Below, piece after piece: positions 1,330-18,459 of a DNA stretch of 23,768 bases (its first letter is position 1; each line of letters opens with the position of its first letter). Where the stretch lies: IMG/VR virus record IMGVR_UViG_3300030106_006393, positions 47,680 to 71,447 of that record; one strand, 5' to 3'. The stretch comes from a virus. Made by a program: the position numbers and the translations under genes. Under the pieces are notes generated by a model. The model made no database searches and was not told where the DNA came from. It saw only the letters and a program-made list of their open reading frames with translations.

Positions 1330-1611
1330 ATGGCTACTAATTTACATATCGTTAACAATAGAGAGATTGAAGAAAAGGAAAAGCATATTACTAGCTTTAT
1401 CAAGAGCCTTGCAGCGGTGGAAGAAGCAATGGAGCCCTTCAAGGACCAGAAGCGAGACCTGCGACAGAACTATGTCGACAATGGTTGGCTCACCAAAGAA
1501 GAGATGCGAATGGCAGTACGCGCATATCGCCTGATGAAGACTGATACTGACATGGATCAGCTTTTGGATTTCTTCCAGCATGTGAAGAAGACTGTGGGGA
1601 ACAATGGTTGA
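1330..1611 (+). CDS. Small helical phage protein, function unknown
   Basis: A 93-residue protein with a very good ribosome site (AAAGGAG, then AAATA, then ATG), first gene after a clear promoter. It is rich in charged residues and predicted helical: residues 10-45 look like a coiled coil (REIEEKEKHITSFIKSLAAV onward). A basic middle (KDQKRDLRQNYVDNGWLTKE) is followed by a second helix. The pattern of a charged coiled coil plus a basic helical hairpin loosely recalls GapR-like (DUF2312) DNA-binding proteins, but this is resemblance only. Its 3' end overlaps groES by 8 bases (ATGGTTGA), suggesting translational coupling. No signal peptide or membrane segment is seen. Expression is likely early because it is promoter-proximal, which is inference. 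Confidence 0.8.
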   Translation: MATNLHIVNNREIEEKEKHITSFIKSLAAVEEAMEPFKDQKRDLRQNYVDNGWLTKEEMRMAVRAYRLMKTDTDMDQLLDFFQHVKKTVGNNG

Positions 1612-1915
1612 ATCTCTTTCCCCGCTGAATCGTCGTATTCTTATAGTCCCGCACTTTAAAGAGCAAAAGGATGATTCAGGTATTCTACTGCCAGAAGATT
1701 ATAAGCCACAGGAAGAGCAGCACATTGTTGCTACTGTGGTAGCTGTCGCTCCTGACTGTGCTCCTAGTTTTGCTTCTATTCGCAATTCTAGAGAGAGGCA
1801 GGAGATTATAGTTGATAGAGCTATGATTGAAACGATCAACCATAAGGGTAAAAAGTTTCATCTTATTCTTGAGAACTATGTTGTGGGTGTAATGCGGGGA
1901 AGAAGTGAGATTTGA
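1604..1915 (+). CDS. groES: GroES-like co-chaperonin
   Basis: 103 residues, the usual size for a 10-kDa co-chaperonin. It opens with SPLNRRILIVPHFKEQKDDS, matching the GroES pattern of 'pL.dRvlv'. GILLPEDY follows at 26-33, in the place of the GGI[VL]L mobile loop that docks on the GroEL apical domain. A beta-strand core (HIVATVVAVAPDC) comes next, and the C-terminal strand has LILENYVVGVM. The body is diverged, as in T4 gp31-type phage co-chaperonins. It probably forms the heptameric lid for the GroEL encoded at 16891, about 15 kb away on the same strand. The start overlaps the previous stop by 8 bases and the end overlaps thyX by 11, so it is translationally coupled in a promoter-led operon. 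The known family role is capping the folding chamber. Specificity for a phage protein (for example the capsid protein) is inferred. Confidence 0.83.
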   Translation: MVESLSPLNRRILIVPHFKEQKDDSGILLPEDYKPQEEQHIVATVVAVAPDCAPSFASIRNSRERQEIIVDRAMIETINHKGKKFHLILENYVVGVMRGRSEI

Positions 1916-2612
1916 TCTATATGGAGACAAGATCGGAGCCGTAGAGTATGTTAGTCATATGGGCTCCGACTTGTCTGTCGTTAACGCTGCAAGAGTCTCC
2001 TTTGGCTCGAAGAGGGATGAGCTGAATGAAAAAGATATTAAACTTATTAACTACCTCATGCAGCATAACCACACTAGTCCATTTGAGCATTGTACTATTA
2101 CAATGCGTTTTACTGTTCCTTTATTCATAAGGTCCCAGCATCATCGACACAGAACGTGGGCTTACAACGAGATCAGCAGGCGATATACGTCCGTTGATAT
2201 GCAGTTTTATCAGCCAAAAGAATTCAGAACACAACATAAGTCTAATAGACAGGCAAGTGAAGACAAACTGATTAATCCTCTGGTATCTTTCAGAGACTCC
2301 TATCAGGTTGGCCATTCTGGATACGCCGCACGTCTAGTTGAAAATCACCATGCAACATCTATGACTCTATATCAATCTTTGCTAAATTCTGGAGTCTGTA
2401 GAGAACAAGCAAGAGGGGTTCTCCCTCAGAATTTGTACACGCAATATTACGGCACCGCAAATCTTCACAATCTATTAAAATTTGTATCGCTCCGTAGCCA
2501 CGACGGAGCACAATGGGAAATCCAAAGAGTGGCACAGGCTTGCTTGGCCATAGCGAGGGAGCACTTCCCTGAGTCTATAAAAGCGTATGAGAAGAAGCAT
2601 ATGGAGTTGTGA
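1905..2612 (+). CDS. thyX: Flavin-dependent thymidylate synthase ThyX
   Basis: Makes dTMP from dUMP using FAD, NADPH and methylenetetrahydrofolate; 235 residues, normal for the family. The ThyX signature RHR-x7-S is at 81-91 (RHRTWAYNEIS), followed by RRY. Other family marks are HTSPFEH (56-62), EQARGVLPQNLYTQYY with the dUMP-binding Arg, and a C-terminal RSHDGAQWEIQ block. Oddity: the residue that is Ser in the fuller motif RHRxxSxNExS is Ala here (A86). The start is a GTG at 1905 preceded by GGGGAAGAA and overlapping groES by 11 bases. The next in-frame Met is at residue 19 and would delete the first conserved strand. Together with dUTPase (11083) it gives a dUMP-to-dTMP route. Confidence 0.95.
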   Translation: MRFDLYGDKIGAVEYVSHMGSDLSVVNAARVSFGSKRDELNEKDIKLINYLMQHNHTSPFEHCTITMRFTVPLFIRSQHHRHRTWAYNEISRRYTSVDMQFYQPKEFRTQHKSNRQASEDKLINPLVSFRDSYQVGHSGYAARLVENHHATSMTLYQSLLNSGVCREQARGVLPQNLYTQYYGTANLHNLLKFVSLRSHDGAQWEIQRVAQACLAIAREHFPESIKAYEKKHMEL

Positions 2613-4675
2613 TGAAAAGATTTTTGTTTTTGTTTTTGTTTTTATTGGTTGGGTGCGAAGATGATACTGCCGCTACAGGTGGCAGATCTCTGGCTGACAA
2701 GGGTTCAACATTCGTTGAAAATGGCGACGTAAGAGTACTCATTCCCAGAGATATGCGTCAGCGAGAGCCAGATCAGTTTGTCTATATCGTCGATGCAAGA
2801 ATGCGATTTGATATGATCATAGACGCAGCACCGCCACCACAGGTGTGCAGAAGATGGGGGATGAAAGAAGAGTGTACCCTGCCTGATTTTGAGGGACCTT
2901 GCGCTCAAGGTGAAAGAATCTGCAGAGAGACAGAGTGGAGCGACTGTGTTCCAGTTAACTTTCCCCGTCAAGAGGTTTGTGATGCTATCGACAATGATTG
3001 TGATGGAAGACTAAACGAGTCCCCACTGTCTCAGAACGAGGTTCTCTCCAAAATGTGTTACACAGGCGCTCCAGGGACCGATAAGAACGGCCCTTGTCGC
3101 AGCGGTATTTCATTGTGCGAAGAAGTTATGGTAAGCACAGATGCAGGAGTTATCATCGCGTATGAGTATGGAGACTGCCAGAACCAAATAGTGCCCTCTG
3201 AGGAGGAGTGTGATTCGATCGATAATGATTGTGATAGATCCACGGACGAAGGCGTGCTAAACGCTTGTGATCAATGCGGAGAAGTTCCAGTTGAAGAGTG
3301 TGACGGTATTGATAATGATTGTGACGACTCTACGGACGAAGGCTTATTGAACGCTTGTGACGAATGTGGCCCATTGCCAGAAGAGCTGTGTGATTTTATT
3401 GATAATGACTGCGACGGTGAGATCGATGAAGACGCTGGTGACTGTGAATGTGAAAACCCGCTTTATGTCCCACAGCCAGAAAAGTGCAATGGCTTAGACG
3501 ATGACTGTGACGACTTTATTGACGAAGGCCCCGGCGGCGGCCCATTGACTTCTCTTTGTGCAACCAATCAGCAAACAGGCGAGGTTGAAACCTTCGCAAG
3601 AAGAGAAGATGGTCCAAATTATGTTGGCGGTGATTGTCGTCTTGGTCTCGCAATTTGCGAATCACGACGCGTCGATGGAGAAGAGGAATATGGGTACTTC
3701 GAGTGCCAGGAAGAAATACTCCCCAGAAACGAGCGTTGTAACGAGGAGGATGATGACTGCGATGGTATAGCAGATGAAAACTTTCAACAAGGAAGCGTCG
3801 CAGTGATGATGGTTGTAGACGTCTCTGGTTCAATGCAGGATGATGAGTTGTTCGCTGCCTTCAACGCAACAAGGGACACTGTCTCGGTCTTACACGCTCA
3901 GGGCGTACAGGATGTTTGCTATATGTTGGCAGTAGTTGGAAATGACGAAATGGAAGATCCATATCTGCAAGCTTATGCGGATAACTGCGTCCCCGGCGTT
4001 GAAGACCCTCCTATCGTTCCAGTCGAGGATATGAGAGGAGCAGTTGTAGCCCTTCAGGGTCAGATTGCTGGCAACCTAATCAACCAAGGTGGTGCTACTG
4101 AAAACACGTACGATGCAATAGGTAAGTTTTTTACAGATGATCTGCTCGATTGGGACAACGATGGCTTTCCAGATGAAGTTGAGTGGGCGACTAACCGCCC
4201 TGGACTTAATCCTGTTCACACAACAGATTTGAGCCGATATACTCACAGAATAGTTGTTGTTCTAGGTGACGAGCGAGGTCAAGGTGTTTTGTATGATGAA
4301 CATACTGCAGCAATGGCAATGGCACGCTCTGGAGGAATGGTTTTTATAATCGGCCCAGCACACTTGGAAGCAAGCTACTCTCAGTTGATGGACAATGGAG
4401 CCGTTCGCAGAGAAATGGGGAGAGGTCTTGGTAGAAATGATAACGTAGAAAACATAACCGAAGCGATAGTAGAGGCTATCGAAGAGGCTGCTTGTATCAA
4501 CAGGAGAGTTGGGCAACCCGCTCCGGACGGTGGCGTAGATGACGGAGGTGTGACCGATGCAGGCCTCGATGGTGGTTTGGCTAGAAATCTAATACCTCTT
4601 GTTCCAAATTACAAGGAGACATCCGCAACTTATCGAACCGACAAGATGTGGTCAGTTTACAGGATGTGTTTCTAA
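2612..4675 (+). CDS. Secreted lipoprotein with six MopE-type metal-binding motifs and a VWA domain
   Basis: 687 residues. An N-terminal KR plus a hydrophobic F/L run and the lipobox LVGC (acylated Cys15) mark a lipoprotein. Six C-x3-D-x-DCD-x3-[DN]E motifs, typical of MopE-like 'putative metal-binding' repeats, lie at about 123, 200, 230, 260, 292 and 376. Those at 200, 230 and 260 fall in a 30-residue tandem repeat. A VWA domain follows (~396-626), with the MIDAS motif DVSGS at 403-407 and an EF-hand-like loop DWDNDGFPDEVE at 513-524. The tail is Asp/Gly rich. The start is the ATG at 2612 (TGATG overlap with thyX), chosen over the GTG at 2609 because GGAG sits 5 bases upstream of it. Known of the families: MopE motifs bind metal and VWA domains mediate adhesion. 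Inferred: it is displayed on the infected host's envelope, perhaps for superinfection exclusion. The exact role is unknown. Confidence 0.85.
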   Translation: MKRFLFLFLFLLVGCEDDTAATGGRSLADKGSTFVENGDVRVLIPRDMRQREPDQFVYIVDARMRFDMIIDAAPPPQVCRRWGMKEECTLPDFEGPCAQGERICRETEWSDCVPVNFPRQEVCDAIDNDCDGRLNESPLSQNEVLSKMCYTGAPGTDKNGPCRSGISLCEEVMVSTDAGVIIAYEYGDCQNQIVPSEEECDSIDNDCDRSTDEGVLNACDQCGEVPVEECDGIDNDCDDSTDEGLLNACDECGPLPEELCDFIDNDCDGEIDEDAGDCECENPLYVPQPEKCNGLDDDCDDFIDEGPGGGPLTSLCATNQQTGEVETFARREDGPNYVGGDCRLGLAICESRRVDGEEEYGYFECQEEILPRNERCNEEDDDCDGIADENFQQGSVAVMMVVDVSGSMQDDELFAAFNATRDTVSVLHAQGVQDVCYMLAVVGNDEMEDPYLQAYADNCVPGVEDPPIVPVEDMRGAVVALQGQIAGNLINQGGATENTYDAIGKFFTDDLLDWDNDGFPDEVEWATNRPGLNPVHTTDLSRYTHRIVVVLGDERGQGVLYDEHTAAMAMARSGGMVFIIGPAHLEASYSQLMDNGAVRREMGRGLGRNDNVENITEAIVEAIEEAACINRRVGQPAPDGGVDDGGVTDAGLDGGLARNLIPLVPNYKETSATYRTDKMWSVYRMCF
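2621..2643 (+). repeat. Short tandem repeat (TTTTTG) in the lipoprotein signal peptide
   Basis: Three exact TTTTTG units plus a partial fourth encode the alternating Phe-Leu core of the signal peptide. The unit is two codons, so gain or loss of a whole unit would stay in frame and only change the length of the hydrophobic segment. Confidence 0.7.
3209..3430 (+). repeat. 90-bp tandem repeat encoding MopE metal-binding units
   Basis: Two full 90-base units (3209-3298, 3299-3388) and a partial third (from 3389) share strong DNA and protein similarity. Each unit starts CD.IDNDCD..[TI]DE and the first two continue LNACD.CG..P.E. Exact 90-base spacing of the Cys codons shows expansion by in-frame duplication. 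The other three MopE motifs of the protein (from ~2978, ~3485 and ~3737) are irregularly spaced and more diverged. Confidence 0.8.
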
Positions 4676-5799
4676 TGAAAAGGATTTTCGTTCTGATCTT
4701 AGCTATCGGTTGTACGGACGACAGTCCCCCATCGATGCCGACAGATGTGAAGCTTGTGTACAGGGATGCGTCACAACCCGTTGTGGACGCACTCATCATA
4801 CCAGCCGACGCTGCACCTGTTGTGGATGCTGCTCCTGACGCTTCGCAGAGACCTCCTTTCGAGTGTCCCTTGAGTGATACGGTTGATCGGTTGGGATCTG
4901 AACTTTGCGAGAGAGATGATGATACTGTCGGACAAAGGGCAATTTGGTGCGACAAGGGATATATACGTTTAGGTCCGTGCGATCCATGCGAAGTAGAAAC
5001 TTGCGACAACGAAGACAACGACTGTGACGGCCGTATCGATGAAGGAGAATTCTCTTGCAATACTGCCTGTGGCCCCGGCAGCGGCATCTGTATAGATGGA
5101 TCGGTCGAAGGGTGCGATGCTCCTGAGGTCATCAACACTGACGTGCTCTTCATAGTTGATTGGTCAAGTTCAATGGGGGCTCGTATAGATGCGACTCTTG
5201 ATGCGCTGGGAAGATTTTCAAGAGAATTTCAAACAAGCGAACAAGTCAAGTGGGGCTTAATTGTGGGGCCAATAAGAACTCCAAGAGAAGACAATCCAGA
5301 AATAAGTCAAGAGACCTTGATTCTTATATCAAACATATCTACATTTGATGACTTTCTTGTTCGCTTTGTTGCATCCCCTCGTGTTCACACTGGAGGCAAG
5401 GAGATGCTTTTGGATGCCGTATACATCGCATTGAGAAATGTTAGTGGGAATCTTGCAAACAACTTAGAAGAATCCAGATGGACTCAGGGCGCCGCATCTG
5501 TGCCTCCTTTGGGAGAGTTTATCATCAACTGGAGACCTGGGGCAGATAAAATTATGGTTGTGTTTTCTGACGAAGTCGAAAGAACTTACATGGACCCGCC
5601 AAACACGATCTACAGGGTTGATGACGCCCTTGCGGCATCTCCAAACTTAAAGCTATATACTTTTGCGGGTGGATTTTACGGTTGGGATGAACTCGCCGCA
5701 CGTACCGGTGGAGCAAACTTCGCACTAACAGCAGAAGCAGATGAGATGTACGAGAGTCTAATGACGATCTTAAGCGACGTCTGTAGGCCACGGCAGTGA
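4675..5799 (+). CDS. Second secreted lipoprotein with one MopE motif and a VWA domain
   Basis: 374 residues from the ATG at 4675, which overlaps the previous stop (TAATG). Upstream in-frame codons would only add nine residues before the signal peptide, so this start is preferred. MKR plus a hydrophobic stretch ending LAIGC gives a very short lipoprotein signal (Cys13). A D/A/P-rich linker (~30-58, e.g. DAAPVVDAAPDAS) is of the kind seen on Myxococcota-like surface lipoproteins. One MopE motif, CDNEDNDCDGRIDEG, starts at 110. A VWA domain (156-370) has the MIDAS motif DWSSS at 162-166 and a further likely metal Asp in VVFSDE (D299). The architecture is the same as that of the preceding gene with fewer repeats, so the two are probably old paralogues acting together at the cell envelope. 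The function is inferred, not shown. Confidence 0.83.
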   Translation: MKRIFVLILAIGCTDDSPPSMPTDVKLVYRDASQPVVDALIIPADAAPVVDAAPDASQRPPFECPLSDTVDRLGSELCERDDDTVGQRAIWCDKGYIRLGPCDPCEVETCDNEDNDCDGRIDEGEFSCNTACGPGSGICIDGSVEGCDAPEVINTDVLFIVDWSSSMGARIDATLDALGRFSREFQTSEQVKWGLIVGPIRTPREDNPEISQETLILISNISTFDDFLVRFVASPRVHTGGKEMLLDAVYIALRNVSGNLANNLEESRWTQGAASVPPLGEFIINWRPGADKIMVVFSDEVERTYMDPPNTIYRVDDALAASPNLKLYTFAGGFYGWDELAARTGGANFALTAEADEMYESLMTILSDVCRPRQ

Positions 5800-5802
5800 A
5801 AC

Positions 5803-6588
5803 ATGGAATACAAAAACATCGTCATAGGCTCCAGCCTACCAGCGCTACTGTTTGCCTATTATAACGAATATCCGATTATAATTAACTCGCTACGCAGGCC
5901 ATTCAGGTTCGACAGTTTATCAATGGATGTTCAGTTTCATGACGAGGTGATAAGAAGTAAGAGCTACCTGTGGTCTGCCGTTGCATGGAGGCTGTCCATG
6001 GAAGGCCTCGCACCCTTCGGTCCATCCGCCAAGTCAGTAAGAATAAAGGACGATGTAATATCTAATGTTGTCGAAGGTGGAACCAACATAAAGATCAGCT
6101 TTGAGAAGTGCTATGTCTTTGATGATGACAATCTGACTGTAGAAAACGAGATACTACAAGAGGCAAGTGGGGATGTTCGGGTGTTCGATTGGATGAACGT
6201 ACGCAGAGGAACCACTCATGGTATAGACTATTTGGGATCGGAAGATGACTTTGTAAGGCATATATATTTTTACAAGTCCGAAAGAATAGATGGCAACCAC
6301 AACAAGAAAGATCTGGTTGCGGTATCTTTTCTAAAGGAGGAGGATATCCAAGATTTTGAATACTCTGAGACCATGGCTCGATTTAAGATACAGAAAGAGA
6401 TGTCATCTCACGGGATCATCGGAGCAAAGAGTGGCCTGACTCATGATGGAAAACAAAGAAAGTACAACGTAAAGGTTGAGCCTGATTATAGATATGTCGA
6501 ACCACTAGGAAGGAGAGTATACCAGAACTCGGAAAGAGTAGAGTTCATCAACTTGACAGCCGAGGAAGTGGTGATGGACTATGCTTGA
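5803..6588 (+). CDS. Unknown protein with Rossmann-like N terminus
   Basis: 261 residues. The first ~30 residues, YKNIVIGSSLPALLFAYYNE followed by a hydrophobic strand PIIIN, resemble the beta-alpha-beta opening of FAD- or NAD-binding proteins. The glycine pattern is reduced (GSS.P instead of GxGxxG), so cofactor binding is uncertain. The rest has no motif I recognise; it is mixed alpha/beta and fairly charged, with no membrane segment. It starts 3 bases after the lipoprotein gene with no strong ribosome site, and its end overlaps the next gene by 8 bases (ATGCTTGA). It could be a diverged flavoprotein or a structural protein that only mimics the pattern. The tight coupling to the next gene suggests the two products act together. 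Confidence 0.75.
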   Translation: MEYKNIVIGSSLPALLFAYYNEYPIIINSLRRPFRFDSLSMDVQFHDEVIRSKSYLWSAVAWRLSMEGLAPFGPSAKSVRIKDDVISNVVEGGTNIKISFEKCYVFDDDNLTVENEILQEASGDVRVFDWMNVRRGTTHGIDYLGSEDDFVRHIYFYKSERIDGNHNKKDLVAVSFLKEEDIQDFEYSETMARFKIQKEMSSHGIIGAKSGLTHDGKQRKYNVKVEPDYRYVEPLGRRVYQNSERVEFINLTAEEVVMDYA

Positions 6589-7453
6589 AGAGGGTAGCGG
6601 AAATGTGCAAGCTTTTCATCTCGCAGGTGTCGTTCCTGTAGCTGGTCCTGATTTAGGCTTTGGGTTTCCTTGGCATGACAGTATGCAACCTATCGCTGAA
6701 AATTACCTTGCAGTAGAGAGGTCTGTTGTAGAGTGCGCCTACGCAGGATGCGAGACAATATGGGTGGTCTGCAATGACGACATGCAACCTCTCTTGAAGC
6801 ATAGGATGGGTGACTACATAGAGGACCCCTACTATCTAGACAAGGCTCAGTTTGTAAAATATCCGAGTGCTGCACGAAGACAGATACCTATATTTTATAC
6901 ACCTATTCACCCAAAGGATCGAGACAGAAGGGATAGTCTTGGGTGGTCCGCTCTTCACGGTGCTCTTACAGCATTTATCATGAGCGATAAGATAAGCAAG
7001 TGGCTCATACCCAGCAGATATTATGTTAGCTTTCCTTACGGGGTTTATCAGCCGTGGAGTATTTATAAGCACAGAAAGAGAATCTCTCACAAGAATCCGT
7101 TCTTTCTCTCTATCGATGGAAAGACGATAAGGGACGGAGAGTATTTGGGATTTACGTTTGATGCAGAAGAGTACAAACAATATGTGGCGGATGTTAAACA
7201 AAGCTGCACAGGCGGAAGCAAAAGTATTTCAGCCAAGGAAAGATGGTCTTCTCGGTTTTTTGGACTTGACAAAATCTTTGGTTCTGCTATAATAAACAAA
7301 GATCAAACGTTGGAAGTTCCCTGGTATTACCGAATTGATTCGTGGGACGGACTACACAACTATCTGGCTTCAGAGGAAAGCAAACAAATAAAAAGACCCA
7401 GCGACACATTATTTAAGAAGTCGCTGTACAACAAGATTGGAGAACAAGAATGA
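6581..7453 (+). CDS. Conserved phage protein, possibly nucleotidyltransferase-like (GT-A) fold
   Basis: 290 residues. The start GVVPVAGPDLGFGFPWHDSM followed by PIAENYLAVERSVVECAYAG and CETIWVVCNDDMQPLL has the order seen in sugar-nucleotide nucleotidyltransferases: a 'pvaG' nucleotide loop, a helix, then an AGC-x-I-x-VV strand ending in acidic residues. The usual G-x-G-T-R-x(n)-K signature is absent, so this is a fold-level guess. Other runs that look conserved are PIHPKDRDRRDSLGWS, YYVSFPYGVYQPW and a C-terminal VPWYYRIDSWDGLHNYL. No signal peptide or transmembrane segment is seen. I recall similar proteins near replication genes in marine phages, without known function. It overlaps both neighbours (8 and 4 bases). 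A near-perfect promoter lies inside its 3' end (7266-7293). Confidence 0.8.
   Translation: MLEEGSGNVQAFHLAGVVPVAGPDLGFGFPWHDSMQPIAENYLAVERSVVECAYAGCETIWVVCNDDMQPLLKHRMGDYIEDPYYLDKAQFVKYPSAARRQIPIFYTPIHPKDRDRRDSLGWSALHGALTAFIMSDKISKWLIPSRYYVSFPYGVYQPWSIYKHRKRISHKNPFFLSIDGKTIRDGEYLGFTFDAEEYKQYVADVKQSCTGGSKSISAKERWSSRFFGLDKIFGSAIINKDQTLEVPWYYRIDSWDGLHNYLASEESKQIKRPSDTLFKKSLYNKIGEQE
7266..7293 (+). promoter_or_regulatory. Internal sigma70 promoter for the DNA polymerase operon
   Basis: TTGACA (7266-7271), a 16-base spacer and TATAAT (7288-7293), both hexamers perfect, plus an extended -10 (TG at 7285-7286). It lies within the coding sequence of the preceding gene. The predicted +1 near 7300 would give an mRNA starting ~150 bases before the 7450 gene and reading into dnaE, dut and beyond. 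Confidence 0.72.
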
Positions 7454-7659
7454 AAAAAAACGCACACTTTAGGGGGTACAACGATGTGCCATGGTATCTA
7501 AAAGAGGCCATCGGCTGGCCAGATCATTATGATAATTTGTCGACAGAGCAGCAAGCTTTTGTCTACCAGATGTGTGTAGAGATTGCATCACCTCCCCAGC
7601 TTCGAGAAAACTTGCAAGAAATCCGGGATGATTTGGAGGAGATCATTGAAGACCTCTAG
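7450..7659 (+). CDS. Small acidic protein of unknown function upstream of dnaE
   Basis: 69 residues; the start overlaps the previous stop (ATGA) and has GGAG 8 bases upstream. The sequence has a WYLKEAIGWPDHYDN segment followed by an acidic helix (ENLQEIRDDLEEIIEDL). No known motif, signal or membrane segment was recognised. Its last 14 bases overlap the preferred dnaE start, and its final codons contain the GGAGGAG that probably initiates dnaE, so the two genes look translationally coupled. It could be a small polymerase-associated or regulatory protein, but nothing in the sequence proves this. Confidence 0.7.
   Translation: MKKNAHFRGYNDVPWYLKEAIGWPDHYDNLSTEQQAFVYQMCVEIASPPQLRENLQEIRDDLEEIIEDL
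7635..7641 (+). promoter_or_regulatory. Ribosome binding site deciding the dnaE start
   Basis: GGAGGAG four bases before a TTG at 7646. No comparable site precedes the in-frame ATGs at 7583 and 7628, so TTG initiation is preferred. The spacing is somewhat short. Confidence 0.55.
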
Positions 7660-10600
7660 AGTTAAGTCAACCATTCCTTTCGTTGGTTTGCATGCCCACT
7701 CCGTTGCGGGAAGTATCTTTGATGCCCTGGGATATCCGCAGGAGCATATGGACTTTGCCTATCAGAACGGCATGGACGCACTAGCGCTAACTGATCATGG
7801 GAACGCCAACGGTCTGGCATATCAAGTTTTGCATGCTAAAAAGATGCAGGCTGAAAACAAAAACTTTAAGCCTATCTTTGGCGTTGAGGCATACTTTCTG
7901 CCCTCTGTTGCAAACTGGAGAACTGAGTATGAGAAGGCGCTAAAGGACAAGAAGAAAAAGGTCGACGACACTCAGTCAGGAACCACCGTCGAGAATGAAG
8001 AATCAAAGAAGTTGATGAAAAACATTCTCAACCGTAGACGTCATCTGATTCTTTTGGCACAGAACCAAAAGGGTCTAAAGAACATCTTTAAGTTGATCTC
8101 ATCAAGTTATGACAAAGAGCATTTTTATAGGTATCCCCGCGTCGACTATGCCTTGCTCAAGAAGCACAATGAAGGCGTCATCGCTGCGTCTGCCTGCTTG
8201 GGCGGAGTGTATGCTGGCTGCTATTGGGAGAATCGCGACAAAGGTGAAGATCAAATCCTCACAGCGTTTCGTAACACAACGCAAAAGATGCAGTCCATCT
8301 TTGGAGACAGGTGGTATGGAGAGTTGCAGTGGAATAATGTACCAGAACAGCATGAGCTAAACAGATATATTATCCAGATGCATCACGAGTTTGGTCTTCC
8401 GCTGATTTCAACTGCAGATAGCCACTATCCAGACAAGGAGGCCTGGAAAGACAGAGAGCTTTACAAGCGCCTAGGCTGGCTTGGCAAGCGTCCTGAGTGG
8501 ATGTCTGCTGAGTTGCCAATCGACGTCGAAGAGATTGGGTATGAACTTTATCCGAAGAATGGCGATCAGATGTGGGAGTCTTACAAGAAGTATTCAAAAG
8601 AGTGTCAGTGCGAATATGATGACAACATCGTAAAGAATTCAATTACAGAAACCCACAGGATCGCACATGAAAGGATCGAGACATTCTTTCCAGACAACAC
8701 GGTGCGTCTGCCAGACTTTGTCGTGCCTCAGGATACGACACCAGGCGAGGCTTTGCAGAAGTTGACTGCTGAAGGTTTGAGAAACTTGGGCCTATCTGAT
8801 GACAAAGATTACCTAGACCGCGCAGCTCTAGAGATCGAAGTCATTGACTCTAGAGGGTTCAGTAAATACTTTCTAACTATGAAGGCTATCGCAGATAGGG
8901 CCAAGGAGACCCAATTAGTGGGCGCTGGAAGGGGCTCTGCAGCCGGTTCTCTGGTCGCCTATGCCCTAGGTATCACCCAAGTTGACCCTTTAAAGTATGG
9001 TTTACAGTTTGAGAGGTTTCTGACAAAGGGTGGCTCTGGATATCCAGATATTGACTTTGATACAGCAGAACCCATGAAACTAAAGGAGGAACTGGTTGAG
9101 GAATGGGGCGAGAACACAGTGGTTCCGATCTCTAATTGGAACACGCTACAGCTCAGGTCCCTCATCAAAGATATTTCAAAGTTTTACGATGTGCCTTTTA
9201 CAGAGGTAAACACCGTCACCAGCAAGATGATCTACGAGGCTACTCCACTAGCCAAAAAGAAGCATGGGATCACGGCAGGTGTTTACAATCCCACATTCGA
9301 AGAGGTAATGGAATTTTCGGATTCGCTAAAAAAATTCCTCAGTAAATATCCTCATATTAAGACTCACGTCGAGGCTCTATATGGACAGGTAAGATCTTGC
9401 TCAAGGCATGCCGGTGGCGTGGTTGTTGGCGAGAATCTAAACGAGTGGATGCCAATCATTGCATCTGGTGGTGTGCGCCAGACTCCATGGAGCGAAGGCA
9501 TGAACGTCCGCCAACTGGAGCCTATGGGCTTTATCAAGTTTGATTTATTGGGTCTCGCCTCTTTGCGCATGATCGAGGGTGCAATCAGGCATATTCTAAA
9601 GAGGCATAAGAATGTTCCTGAACCTACGTTCGATCAGGTAAGAGAGTTTTACAACGAAAAGCTCCACCCGGATAGGATTGATCTTGGTGATCAGAACGTT
9701 TGGAAAAACATCTTTCAAGATGGTAAGTGGGCCGGCATCTTTCAGTTTACAGAGGACGGAGCACAGAAGTTTTGCAAGAGAGTTAAGCCAAGCAATCTAA
9801 TTGAGCTGTCAGCTATAACTAGTATTTATAGACCAGGCCCATTATCGGCCAATGTTGACAAGAAGTTTGTGTCGGCTAAGAACAATCCAAATGATGTGGA
9901 ATATGTTAACGACTTTGCCCGCAATGTTACAGAGGAAACCTTCGGCTTCCTTATCTTTCAGGAGCAGATCGCTATGTTGGCTCACAAGCTCGGCAAAGAC
10001 CTGTCTCTTGACGAGGGCAACAAACTTAGAAAGCTTCTAACAAAGAAGGGCACAGGAGAGGTTCAAGAGCAGAAGGATAAGATCTTCTCAAAGTTTCTTG
10101 ATGGTTGCCTGGAGAAAGGAATGAGAAAACATGAAGCAAGAGAACTATGGGAGACCTTTGAATACTTTTCCGGCTACGGCTTTAACAAGTCGCACGCTGT
10201 TTCTTACTGTATGCTGTCGTTTCAGTGTGCTTGGCTGCTCAACTATTATCCAGCAGAGTGGACCGCAGCTTTCTTGGACAAGGAGCCCGAGACGCGCAAA
10301 GAAAAGGCGATCAACATTTCAAAGTCTCTCGGATTTGAAATCGCACCATTGAACGTGAACACTTCTGGAATGGTGTGGGAGATCTCGCCAGACGGTAAGA
10401 CGCTTATCCAGCCCTTGTCGTCAGTCAAGGGTCTTGGAGAGAAGGCGATCGAGCAGATCCTAAACAATCGTCCGTTCAATACGGTAGAGGAGTTTTTGTT
10501 CAACGAGAACATTGTATATTCAAAACTGAACAAGAAGGCTCTCGATGTCCTTTGTCGATCTGGTGCGATGGATGATCTAGTTGACGATAGGTTCACCGGA

Positions 10601-11074
10601 GCAAAGCACTTCTGGAGTTCTGTTGCAGTGGACAGGCCCAGAAAGGAAAAGAATCTATTAGAAAACATAGACAAGTACGCTCCAGAGGGGGACTTTACAG
10701 AAGAAGAGAATATCCAGTATCAGATTGATCTGACCGGGGTCTTCCCTTTTGACTTGGTAATGGGCGAACACATCAGAGAGTCTCTAGACAAGTACATGGT
10801 ACCTCCTATCAGCGAATATGATGCAGAGTTGGGAGGCGTCGTGTGGTGTATTCCGAGAGAGGTCATCAAGAAGAAGACCAAGAACGGCAAGGATTACTAT
10901 ATCGTCAGGGTTATTGATGATAACAACGAAACGAACACCATCCGATGCTGGGGCGTGAGACCGGATAAGGATATAGTAAGAGTAAATCGGCCCTATATGA
11001 TGAAATTAGACTGGAATCCTCAATGGGGTTTCAGCACGAGAAGATTGAGTGCAACTTTTAGAATGTTAGGATAG
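7646..11074 (+). CDS. dnaE: DNA polymerase III alpha subunit (DnaE-type replicative polymerase)
   Basis: Replicative C-family DNA polymerase, 1142 residues from the TTG at 7646 (alternative ATG at 7628). Domains: an N-terminal PHP domain with metal-site motifs LHAHS (14-18), LTDHGN (~48-53) and GVEAYF; a palm with GAGRGSAAGSLVAY and the catalytic pair in PDIDFD (D468, D470); a third catalytic Asp in FIKFDLLGL (D633). TSIYRPGPLS, LIFQEQIAMLAHKLGK and GYGFNKSHAVSY form the fingers and tandem HhH region. A C-terminal OB-like stretch is at ~1040-1110 (GVVWCIPREVIKKKTKNG), and the protein ends soon after. There is therefore little or no room for the tau-binding tail of E. coli DnaE, and the clamp-loader link may differ. 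No intein or frameshift is seen. It is full length and looks active; most phages use A- or B-family polymerases instead. Confidence 0.96.
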   Translation: MKTSRVKSTIPFVGLHAHSVAGSIFDALGYPQEHMDFAYQNGMDALALTDHGNANGLAYQVLHAKKMQAENKNFKPIFGVEAYFLPSVANWRTEYEKALKDKKKKVDDTQSGTTVENEESKKLMKNILNRRRHLILLAQNQKGLKNIFKLISSSYDKEHFYRYPRVDYALLKKHNEGVIAASACLGGVYAGCYWENRDKGEDQILTAFRNTTQKMQSIFGDRWYGELQWNNVPEQHELNRYIIQMHHEFGLPLISTADSHYPDKEAWKDRELYKRLGWLGKRPEWMSAELPIDVEEIGYELYPKNGDQMWESYKKYSKECQCEYDDNIVKNSITETHRIAHERIETFFPDNTVRLPDFVVPQDTTPGEALQKLTAEGLRNLGLSDDKDYLDRAALEIEVIDSRGFSKYFLTMKAIADRAKETQLVGAGRGSAAGSLVAYALGITQVDPLKYGLQFERFLTKGGSGYPDIDFDTAEPMKLKEELVEEWGENTVVPISNWNTLQLRSLIKDISKFYDVPFTEVNTVTSKMIYEATPLAKKKHGITAGVYNPTFEEVMEFSDSLKKFLSKYPHIKTHVEALYGQVRSCSRHAGGVVVGENLNEWMPIIASGGVRQTPWSEGMNVRQLEPMGFIKFDLLGLASLRMIEGAIRHILKRHKNVPEPTFDQVREFYNEKLHPDRIDLGDQNVWKNIFQDGKWAGIFQFTEDGAQKFCKRVKPSNLIELSAITSIYRPGPLSANVDKKFVSAKNNPNDVEYVNDFARNVTEETFGFLIFQEQIAMLAHKLGKDLSLDEGNKLRKLLTKKGTGEVQEQKDKIFSKFLDGCLEKGMRKHEARELWETFEYFSGYGFNKSHAVSYCMLSFQCAWLLNYYPAEWTAAFLDKEPETRKEKAINISKSLGFEIAPLNVNTSGMVWEISPDGKTLIQPLSSVKGLGEKAIEQILNNRPFNTVEEFLFNENIVYSKLNKKALDVLCRSGAMDDLVDDRFTGAKHFWSSVAVDRPRKEKNLLENIDKYAPEGDFTEEENIQYQIDLTGVFPFDLVMGEHIRESLDKYMVPPISEYDAELGGVVWCIPREVIKKKTKNGKDYYIVRVIDDNNETNTIRCWGVRPDKDIVRVNRPYMMKLDWNPQWGFSTRRLSATFRMLG

Positions 11075-11532: not shown

Positions 11533-11816
11533 TGGCTTCTGCAACCAGAAAACTACAGAGAAAAAAACACAAGGAAGCTAAAAAGGACATGGCCGAGAAG
11601 CTTGGTCTGTTTCATAGAGTGCCAGATATTTGTACTATGTGCGAAAAACCATTTGACAAAAAGGACAAAAGTCAGGTACAATCATGGAGAGTGGTAGTAA
11701 GAGAGAAGGAGAAGAGAGTTAATCTTTATTGTCCGACTTGCTGGGATCACGCTAACGAACTCTTGGGTTCGATAATGGAAAAACTAGAAGGAGACAAGAA
11801 TGAAGGAGACACTTAG
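11532..11816 (+). CDS. Small zinc-finger protein of unknown function
   Basis: 94 residues from a GTG that overlaps the dut stop (TAGTG). The front is strongly basic (TRKLQRKKHKEAKKDM), followed by a four-cysteine motif: CTMC at ~34-37 and CPTC at ~67-70, separated by a charged beta-like segment (QSWRVVVREKEKRVNLY). This CxxC...CxxC spacing suggests a zinc ribbon or treble clef. The basic tail plus zinc ribbon suggests nucleic-acid binding, perhaps a transcription or replication accessory protein. I recall similar small proteins in marine phages but not a function. The alternative start Met20 would lose the basic tail. It overlaps the next gene by 17 bases. Confidence 0.78.
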   Translation: MASATRKLQRKKHKEAKKDMAEKLGLFHRVPDICTMCEKPFDKKDKSQVQSWRVVVREKEKRVNLYCPTCWDHANELLGSIMEKLEGDKNEGDT

Positions 11817-12798
11817 CTTTGAAGATGTGCTCTTGGTACCGCAAAAGAGTGACATAGTAAGCAGGTCAGAAGTTAATCTGACATCAACAATGGGAAACCA
11901 CAGTTTTGAGCTGCCGATAATCGCTAGTCCTATGGACACGGTTACCGAAACGGTCATGGCTTCAACCATGAAGGAGCTTGGAGCGCTCGGGATCATCCAC
12001 AGGTACGCATCGATTGAAGAGCAGTGCGAAATGGTAAGCCCCACGGTTGTGGCTGCAGCAGTAGGAGTTTCAGGAGACTTTAAAGAGCGTGTCGCCTCTC
12101 TCAAAGAAGTTGGTCTAGAGATTGTCTGTTTAGATGTTGCTCACGGCCACCATTCAATGATGGAAGCTGCGCTAAAGCACCTTAGAGATACGTATGGCAA
12201 CGATTTAACAATCATAGCGGGTAACGTAGCGACTCCAGAGGGGTATAGGGATCTTTCTGAGTGGGGTGCTGACGCAGTCAGGATCGGCATCGGGGGCGGC
12301 TCTATCTGTTCGACAAGGATTCAGACGGGACATGGAGTTCCCACCTTTCAGTCTGTTTTGGACTGCAAGTATGTCGACGCGGATGCCAAGATTATAGCTG
12401 ATGGCGGCATAAAGACAGCAGGAGACATGGTTAAGGCCATAGCTGCAGGTGCAGACTTTGTAATGCTTGGCTCGATGCTCGCAGGAACGGATGAATCACC
12501 GGGGCAAGTCTTTGTCTCTGGAGACGACAAGAAGTATAAGGTATACAGAGGGATGGCTAGCGTTGAAGCGCAGGTCGACTGGAGAGGTGAAGCAAGATCT
12601 TTGGAGGGTGTATCGACTACGATTCCGCATAAGGGCTCAGTTACGAGCGTGATGTCTGGTCTAAAGCAGAATATAAGAAGCGGACTGTCTTATTCTGGTG
12701 CACGCACCATAGAAGAATTCCAAGCGAAAGCTAGATTCATCAGGCAAACTAGCGCAAGCATGGTGGAGAGCGGGACACACATACTAAATGGAAGATAA
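11800..12798 (+). CDS. IMP dehydrogenase / GMP reductase family enzyme, GMP reductase more likely
   Basis: 332 residues forming one (beta/alpha)8 barrel without the CBS pair normal in IMPDH. Family marks: FEDVLLVP (7-14), [22 protein letters not shown], the catalytic loop GGGSICST with Cys170, IIADGGIK, and the flap region YRGMAS. Which enzyme it is: the IMPDH Arg-Tyr dyad of the flap is missing (the segment reads [11 protein letters not shown]), while Thr172 and Glu269 match the Thr-Glu dyad of GMP reductase, and [11 protein letters not shown] resembles GMPR. GMPR deaminates GMP to IMP with NADPH; IMPDH makes XMP from IMP. Either would adjust purine pools during infection. AAGGAG lies ~7 bases before the ATG, and the 3' end overlaps the next gene by 11 bases. 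Confidence 0.88.
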
Positions 12799-16890: not shown

Positions 16891-18459
16891 ATGTCAAAGC
16901 ATTTTTCGTCTAAGGAAGAACTACACAATAAAATTTTAACAGGGGTCAACACACTAGCAGATAACGTTGCATCGACTCTAGGACCCAGAGGTCGCAATGT
17001 TATCCTTCAAGAAAAGGGCAAGATGCCCATCATTACAAAGGATGGAGTTACGGTCGCAAAGTTTGTAGACCTCGAAGATCCCTTCGAGAACGCAGGCGCA
17101 CAGATCGTCAAGCAAGCATCAGCAAAGACAAACGTCGATGCTGGTGATGGCACAACTACTTCTACTGTTTTGACCCGAGCCATCTTTCGTGAGGCGTGGG
17201 ATCATATCGAACAAGGCGCAAGCCCAACAGAACTGAGAAGAGGCATTGACAAAGCAGTATCAGCTACTGTTTTTGCTTTAGAGGAGAAGGCTCGACCTGT
17301 GGCAAGTGCGGATGACATCTCGCACATTGCGACAATCTCAGCCAACAACGATAAGAGCATTGGAGACCTCATTGCCCTTGCGGTCGACAAGGTGGGAAAG
17401 GATGGATCTATCACGATCGAAGAGGCCAACTCTTTGGACACTGCTCTAGATCTAGTAGAAGGCTTCAGGTTTGATTCAGGCTACGCTGCATCTGCGTTCG
17501 TGACCGATACGCGCCGAGCGATTACCCGTCACGAAAAGCCAATGTTTCTGATTACAGACTCTAGAATTGAAGCTGTTGATCAGATTCTCCCCTCTTTGGA
17601 GATTGCCGCTCGCGAGGCTCGACCTCTTATTATCATTGCAGATGAGATCGAAGGCCAGGCCCTGGCAGCCCTAATCATGAACACGGTTCGTGGTTCTATG
17701 AAAGTCGCTGCAATTAAGGCTCCGAGATACGGGGAAGCAAGAAGGCAGATCATGTCAGACTTGGCTATCGCAACAAACGGAAAGTATTTCCAACGTGCGT
17801 CTGGTGATGATATCAAGCAAGTTTCATTAATTGACTTTGGCACTGCCAAGACTATCGAAATCACCAAAAACATGACAACGATCGTAGACGGTGGTGGCTT
17901 ACACATTGAAATTGATGAAAGGATCCAAGAGATCAAAGAGACTCTCGATCAGACTGATTCAATGTACGAATGTGAACAGCTCCAAGAGCGAATCACAAGA
18001 CTGTCTTCAGGTATTGCGATCATCAGAGTTGGGGCGGCAACACAGATTGACATGATTGAAAAGAAGCACAGAATCGAAGACGCTCTAGAGGCAGTTCGCT
18101 CTGCACAAATGGAGGGAATCATTCCTGGCGGCGGTGTTATGCTGTACAGGATCTCCAAGAAGCTCGATGTCGGCACTGATTCTAAGGAGCAGTCCTTGGG
18201 TGTGGACATTGTAAAGAGGGCTCTCTGCGCACCACTACAGATGATGGCACAGAACTCAGGTATGGAATGGCAAGAGGTTGCCTCAAAGATCGATGACGCA
18301 AAGAATGAAGACACAGGAGTCAACTTCCTTACGGGGGAGACAGCAAATCTTTTGGAAGCTGGAGTAATCGATCCTGTGAAGGTGACCCGATGTGCTCTCC
18401 AGAACGCTGCATCTGTGGCGGGAACTCTGATAACAACAAATTATGCCATTATTGAGTAA
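16891..18459 (+). CDS. groEL: GroEL-type (group I) chaperonin
   Basis: 522 residues covering equatorial, intermediate and apical domains. Motifs: GPRGRNV (31-37), ITKDGVTVAK (48-57), DAGDGTTT (83-90, with D86 matching the ATPase Asp87 of E. coli GroEL), EGFRFDSGYAASAFV, IKVGAAT-like IRVGAATQID, RIEDALEAVRS with the second ATPase Asp, and IIPGGGV. It ends TNYAIIE without the Gly-Gly-Met tail of most bacterial GroELs. Apical regions are diverged from the host type. It has its own consensus promoter and ribosome site. With the GroES-like protein at 1604 it could make a complete phage folding machine, probably for capsid or tail proteins; the pairing is inferred. Confidence 0.96.
   Translation: MSKHFSSKEELHNKILTGVNTLADNVASTLGPRGRNVILQEKGKMPIITKDGVTVAKFVDLEDPFENAGAQIVKQASAKTNVDAGDGTTTSTVLTRAIFREAWDHIEQGASPTELRRGIDKAVSATVFALEEKARPVASADDISHIATISANNDKSIGDLIALAVDKVGKDGSITIEEANSLDTALDLVEGFRFDSGYAASAFVTDTRRAITRHEKPMFLITDSRIEAVDQILPSLEIAAREARPLIIIADEIEGQALAALIMNTVRGSMKVAAIKAPRYGEARRQIMSDLAIATNGKYFQRASGDDIKQVSLIDFGTAKTIEITKNMTTIVDGGGLHIEIDERIQEIKETLDQTDSMYECEQLQERITRLSSGIAIIRVGAATQIDMIEKKHRIEDALEAVRSAQMEGIIPGGGVMLYRISKKLDVGTDSKEQSLGVDIVKRALCAPLQMMAQNSGMEWQEVASKIDDAKNEDTGVNFLTGETANLLEAGVIDPVKVTRCALQNAASVAGTLITTNYAIIE

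Follow-up and report, generated by a model that had tools for sequence, protein, structure and literature searches.

A family of predicted VWA/MopE lipoproteins at a fixed locus in uncultured marine T4-like phages

What two adjacent genes for putative surface lipoproteins do inside the nucleotide and replication genes of a phage, and whether they are phage genes at all, is the question raised by the locus described here. The genes, A and B, were singled out in an initial annotation, which read them as a phage-encoded pair, likened them to proteins of Myxococcota, took them to be undescribed and suggested that they could exclude other phages, affect adhesion or benefit predatory hosts. The stretch analyzed (the window, 23,768 nucleotides) covers positions 47680-71447 of a 71,447-base virus record, IMGVR_UViG_3300030106_006393, and ends where the record ends.

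Authenticity and layout of the locus

The record is a fragment of a T4-like myophage, as judged from its genes for a terminase, portal, major head protein, tail sheath, UvsX-like recombinase and DnaB-like helicase; almost all called genes share one strand. Its terminase shares at most 46.6% identity with the best-listed of 50,697 phage records, with all matches below 60%. A and B form part of a tightly packed run between thyX and c16, c17 and dnaE (Table 1), and their placement inside a phage nucleotide/replication cluster is borne out.

Table 1. Genes and protein features of the locus (window coordinates)
Feature	Position	Strand	Basis and remarks
c7, GroES-like co-chaperonin	1604..1915	+	PF00166, 1.3e-6; borders the slot on the left in loci that lack thyX
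thyX	1905..2612	+	PF02511, 1.6e-49; borders the slot on the left; its stop codon overlaps the ATG of A
Gene A, VWA/MopE lipoprotein (predicted), 687 aa, conserved member	2612..4675	+	ORF, Pfam, alignment
Putative lipobox LVGC of A, residues 12-15	2645..2656	+	Sequence; E-D-D after the lipidated Cys
Six MopE-type CxxxDNDCD repeats of A, in Cys-rich stalk	2978..3763	+	Sequence, Pfam
A-type VWA domain of A; MIDAS DVSGSM at 3818-3835	3791..4507	+	Alignment; fold model not confident
C-terminal tail of A (...WSVYRMCF), after DAG-rich linker	4622..4672	+	Counterpart of family tail
Gene B, shorter VWA/MopE lipoprotein (predicted), 374 aa, optional partner	4675..5799	+	ORF, Pfam
Putative lipobox AIGC of B	4702..4713	+	Sequence
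One MopE-type motif of B	4987..5028	+	Sequence; 11.8 bits in Pfam, below cut-off
W-type VWA domain of B; MIDAS DWSSSM at 5158-5175	5131..5790	+	AlphaFold, Foldseek, profile
c16, conserved, borders the slot on the right	5803..6588	+	Locus comparison
c17, conserved neighbor, used for placing related phages	6581..7453	+	c17 searches, tree
dnaE-type DNA polymerase III alpha, the conserved gene that follows	7583..11074	+	Start codon uncertain

An in-frame GTG (2609) precedes the ATG of A, and the likely start of B is the ATG that overlaps the stop codon of A, the GTG at 4648 chosen by the ORF tool falling inside A. Given these start/stop overlaps, translational coupling across thyX, A and B is likely. 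A scan for promoters and terminators returned sites no more frequently than in shuffled sequences, and a search for tRNA genes found none. Neither c16 nor c17 has a credible Pfam or PHROG match; relatives of c17 occur at 530 viral loci, which makes c16/c17 a widespread pair beside dnaE.

Several further features of the record were recorded. Two 10-N gaps are present (record positions 7206-7215 and 47670-47679), the latter just before the window and inside the RNR gene at its left edge. A GroEL-like protein of 522 aa (window 16891-18459, judged by sequence only) lies ~15 kb from the GroES-like Cpn10 gene, and a 332-aa protein at window 11800-12798 resembles IMP dehydrogenase (guaB-like, named by eye) and has relatives in related phages. 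An N-terminal peptide of the MKLLLENWRKFLKEE type is common to unrelated proteins (record positions 10104 and 69299, the latter at window 21620; loci L014, L019, L031 and others) and resembles a T4-type capsid-targeting sequence. Additionally, the proteins encoded at record positions 43017-43535 and 2608-3054 have apparent signal peptides, one of them appearing outer-membrane-barrel-like by eye, and gave no credible match in Pfam or PHROG.

The 10-N gap immediately before the window, together with the fact that MopE repeats are common in Myxococcota and Deltaproteobacteria, could suggest that A and B are host genes without a phage role, introduced through a chimeric contig or a passing transfer. 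We regard this explanation as scarcely credible, and for this locus it is already refuted: a second, gap-free contig of 14.3 kb (IMGVR_UViG_3300012952_003271) is colinear with the record through A and B into dnaE, with 96.3% and 96.6% identity on either side of the record's gap, and the slot that A and B occupy is conserved across dozens of contigs, so that the pair is not a bacterial-phage join. Furthermore, the B-type VWA domain has no close cellular relative in the genomes searched. Comparison of the two contigs gave a dN/dS of 0.053 for A (whose relative is 98% identical) and 0.053 for B, alongside 0.011-0.10 for c7, thyX, c16, c17, dnaE and part of the RNR gene; c15, without any amino-acid change, gave 0. 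A and B are thus phage genes under purifying selection.

The two proteins and their predicted anchoring

Both genes encode a lipobox signal, MopE-type motifs and a VWA domain with a DxSxS motif, just as first described, according to a check of the ORFs and motifs. The signal peptides are short (14 residues before the Cys in A, 12 in B), the stalk of each protein is acid- and Cys-rich, and A and B contain 36 and 13 Cys with MIDAS motifs at residues 403 and 162, respectively. Against Pfam Cu-binding_MopE (PF11617, cut-off 27 bits) A scored 57.6 and B fell under the cut-off, while the Pfam VWA scores were under the cut-off in both (10.8 bits for A, 13.7 for B). Searches of PDB sequence profiles, of PHROGs and, with A and B, of NCBIfam returned no match.

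Structure prediction, which had been proposed as a check, supported one of the two heads. The AlphaFold model of B (mean pLDDT 80.7, mostly above 90 across the VWA domain) matched vWF A3, integrin I domains and the TFIIH VWA with a Foldseek probability of 1.00, and the predicted VWA fold of B is therefore supported despite its Pfam score. The model of A was too poor for use (pLDDT 40), so that its VWA domain is assigned from the MIDAS motif and from residues shared with homologs of ~50-60% identity. D11, S13, S15 and D148 are invariant in the B-type VWA profile; A has DVSGSM and GDE.

The lipid anchoring put forward initially is predicted from the lipoboxes of A, of B and across the family. 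Residue +2 after the lipidated Cys is rarely Asp in the family, and Asp occupies +3 in 56 of 76 proteins. As Asp is absent from +2, we infer from the +2 rule of E. coli that the products are sorted to the outer membrane; sorting rules differ between bacteria (PMC3222651). A Bacteroidetes host, considered for its C-S-D-type surface-export signals, is argued against by the frequent Shine-Dalgarno motifs, which precede 68% of ATG starts vs 18% of random positions.

At its C-terminus protein A has a polar linker followed by a short tail, with no obvious transmembrane segment. The C-terminus approximates RYD[YFH]xxx[IVLM]C[YFL] in 53 distinct slot-type proteins, and B lacks this tail. Five different codons are in use for the Arg of the tail, which places the selection on the protein. 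The final codons often run into the start of c16, and the idea that the tail is a by-product of that overlap is partly true for these codons only: the RYDY codons vary, and the tail persists without the overlap in A of this record and at loci L024, L025 and L112.

Distribution, slot occupancy and origin

Searches with A and B initially gave 17 and 15 viral loci, and profile searches then gave 314 B-type and 172 A-type loci, so that the occurrence of such genes exceeds chance. In 66 of the 96 VWA/MopE loci examined, the gene precedes c16, the order being thyX or c7, slot, c16, c17, dnaE; recurrence beside thyX and dnaE in related phages, which had been proposed as a check, was thus found. Forty-five of these 66 slots hold a VWA/MopE gene alone, 16 hold it with an exported SLT transglycosylase lying directly or nearly upstream, three hold two VWA/MopE genes and two a further small gene. 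At the remaining loci of the 96 the VWA/MopE gene lies elsewhere, in 11 cases near a lipoprotein-like protein with an HELVH motif.

Loci were also sampled via the neighbor c17, and a quick tree of 106 distinct c17 proteins separated two sides. On one, a VWA/MopE gene is in the slot in 57 of 57 loci; on the other, a clade of 49 (SH-aLRT 100), it is in none, and the slot holds an SLT in 21 loci and a GH25/PG-binding endolysin-like protein in at least one further locus. These frequencies are not unbiased, because VWA queries had supplied many of the 57 loci and only the best 80 c17 matches were kept. On the VWA side, heads of the A-type and of the B-type (W-type) interchange in the slot, with ~7 changes on the tree; the three states require 8 changes, one being the presence or absence of VWA. 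Taken together, the carriers of the VWA lipoprotein family are marine T4-like phages that form a large, uncultured group, and the gene is kept at every locus sampled on one side of the c17 tree.

The pair itself did not survive as the unit of interest. The conserved element is a single VWA/MopE gene, with the second copy optional and confined to few lineages: B stands beside A at three distinct loci of the c17 tree (the lineages of L022 and of L024/L025), as well as at L023 and L030, and L213 carries the pair in reverse order. Since most relatives lack B, the pair as a functional unit was ruled out. So was a recent tandem duplication, because the VWA domains fall in separate clades, that of B grouping with W-type proteins and that of A not.

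No relative of A or B was found among the 50,697 phage records, and no paper describing such phage VWA/MopE proteins was found in the literature searched, in keeping with the earlier view that they are apparently undescribed. Their likeness to Myxococcota proteins held in part. MopE-region matches in bacterial genomes came mostly from Myxococcota and Deltaproteobacteria, among the matches listed, so that the repeats do recall these bacteria; the B-type VWA profile, in contrast, reached at best 36 bits in 284 Myxococcota genomes vs 247-311 bits in 8 of 10 viral records. Most of the ten viral records gave rows to that profile, and one that gave none (G016) scores 298; the two others were G028 (26.8 bits) and G020, which has an A-type head only and gave no score. 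Recent capture from Myxococcota is therefore unsupported for the B-type VWA and, with no close counterpart in those genomes, the VWA/MopE proteins look like a long-standing phage family, and not like recent host genes.

Candidate roles at the envelope of the infected cell

Our leading reading, offered tentatively and at somewhat less than an even chance, is that the product of A or B is an adhesin-like lipoprotein of the outer membrane that remodels the envelope of the infected cell, most plausibly for superinfection exclusion. The product would be lipid-anchored in the host outer membrane, its Cys/Asp-rich repeats would form a stalk stiffened by disulphides and calcium (the DNDCDGxxDE repeats resemble calcium loops), and the VWA head would bind an envelope ligand via its metal site. 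A would be the core element, to which B would add a head of the other VWA type. Both would be made alongside the replication genes, a timing suggested by gene position, so that the envelope would be remodeled before lysis, with the lipoprotein most plausibly covering or jamming a surface structure used by other phages. The predicted combination of lipid anchor, Cys/Asp-rich stalk and metal-site head is an adhesin layout, the other identified occupants of the slot (exported murein enzymes) act on the envelope, and retention at every locus sampled on the VWA side, together with head exchange, suits a protein that recognizes a partner which itself varies. On these three grounds we slightly favor envelope remodeling or exclusion over help with lysis. 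Against it, the murein hydrolases of the slot would suit a role in lysis no less well, and the head of A lacks a confident model. A broader formulation, which we hold a little more loosely, is that the family constitutes a phage-specific module for envelope recognition that defines a clade, with its VWA/MIDAS head swapped at a fixed locus and its tail kept, acting with or instead of a murein hydrolase and controlling entry or exit.

The same slot occupants are the main argument for a lysis assistant, in which the lipoprotein would act jointly with the slot's exported transglycosylase to tether or disrupt the outer membrane during lysis, functionally replacing a spanin. The murein hydrolases in the slot of related phages (SLT in the VWA-free clade, GH25 with PG-binding), the SLT that accompanies the VWA gene in 16 of 66 slots and the HELVH lipoprotein-like protein near the VWA gene in other phages of the family all speak for such a role; however, VWA is a binding fold that is not known as lytic, the VWA gene sits in the replication cluster, and a search of 20 VWA-carrying records, mostly of 120-200 kb, left 13 with no SLT or Amidase_2 match, so that there is no fixed partner of that type. 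Proteins of phrog_3000 with an SAGCQVF motif, possibly murein enzymes, occur in 9 of 20 VWA-carrying records searched (e.g., L116:8749-9399, near dnaE). On balance we consider a role in lysis the less likely reading by a small margin, and the main competitor. Less probable still is an adhesin toward cells or particles that makes the infected cell sticky and draws new hosts near before lysis: the anchor, repetitive stalk and MIDAS head would suit it, and the Foldseek matches of B include vWF A3 and integrin I domains, but a phage strategy of this kind did not turn up in the literature searched. The Pfam name Cu-binding_MopE, whose cut-off A exceeds, would suggest a copper-scavenging lipoprotein, which we consider very improbable. 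The copper site of MopE needs two His and a kynurenine (PMC3423442), whereas the translated stalk of A (residues 79-395) contains 0 His; the Methylococcus MopE copper site therefore cannot form there, and copper scavenging was rejected on this ground.

A large, integrin-like lipoprotein kept clade-wide in uncultured marine T4-like phages would point to an unrecognized step taking place at the infected cell's envelope. With a fixed slot, two interchangeable heads and a conserved tail, the question is partly testable before the host is cultured.

Among known systems, the phage-encoded envelope lipoproteins are mainly small coliphage proteins. We know of no VWA domain or MopE repeats in Llp or Cor. 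The precedent for the reading as an exclusion lipoprotein is T5 Llp, which the phage encodes as an exclusion lipoprotein of the outer membrane (PMC9586334); Llp and Cor resemble the present family as phage-encoded lipoproteins made in the infected cell (PMC9586334), lipidation being predicted here, and differ in being small, whereas the VWA/MopE proteins have 374 to ~800 aa (687 in A) with a stalk and a head. Methylococcus MopE shares the name-giving Pfam repeat and differs in its copper site, and the MopE-repeat proteins of Myxococcota and Deltaproteobacteria share the CxxxDNDCD repeats and in few cases a VWA-like stretch, with similarity mostly confined to the repeats among the matches listed. 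The exported lytic transglycosylases and GH25 endolysins of related phages occupy the same slot, between thyX or the co-chaperonin and c16, but are enzymes and not binding proteins, and the SLT frequently shares the slot with the VWA gene. Finally, the VWA domains of vWF A3 and the integrin I domains share with these proteins the fold (predicted in B) and the DxSxS metal-site motif, and are set apart by the lipoprotein context here and by ~10-18% identity.
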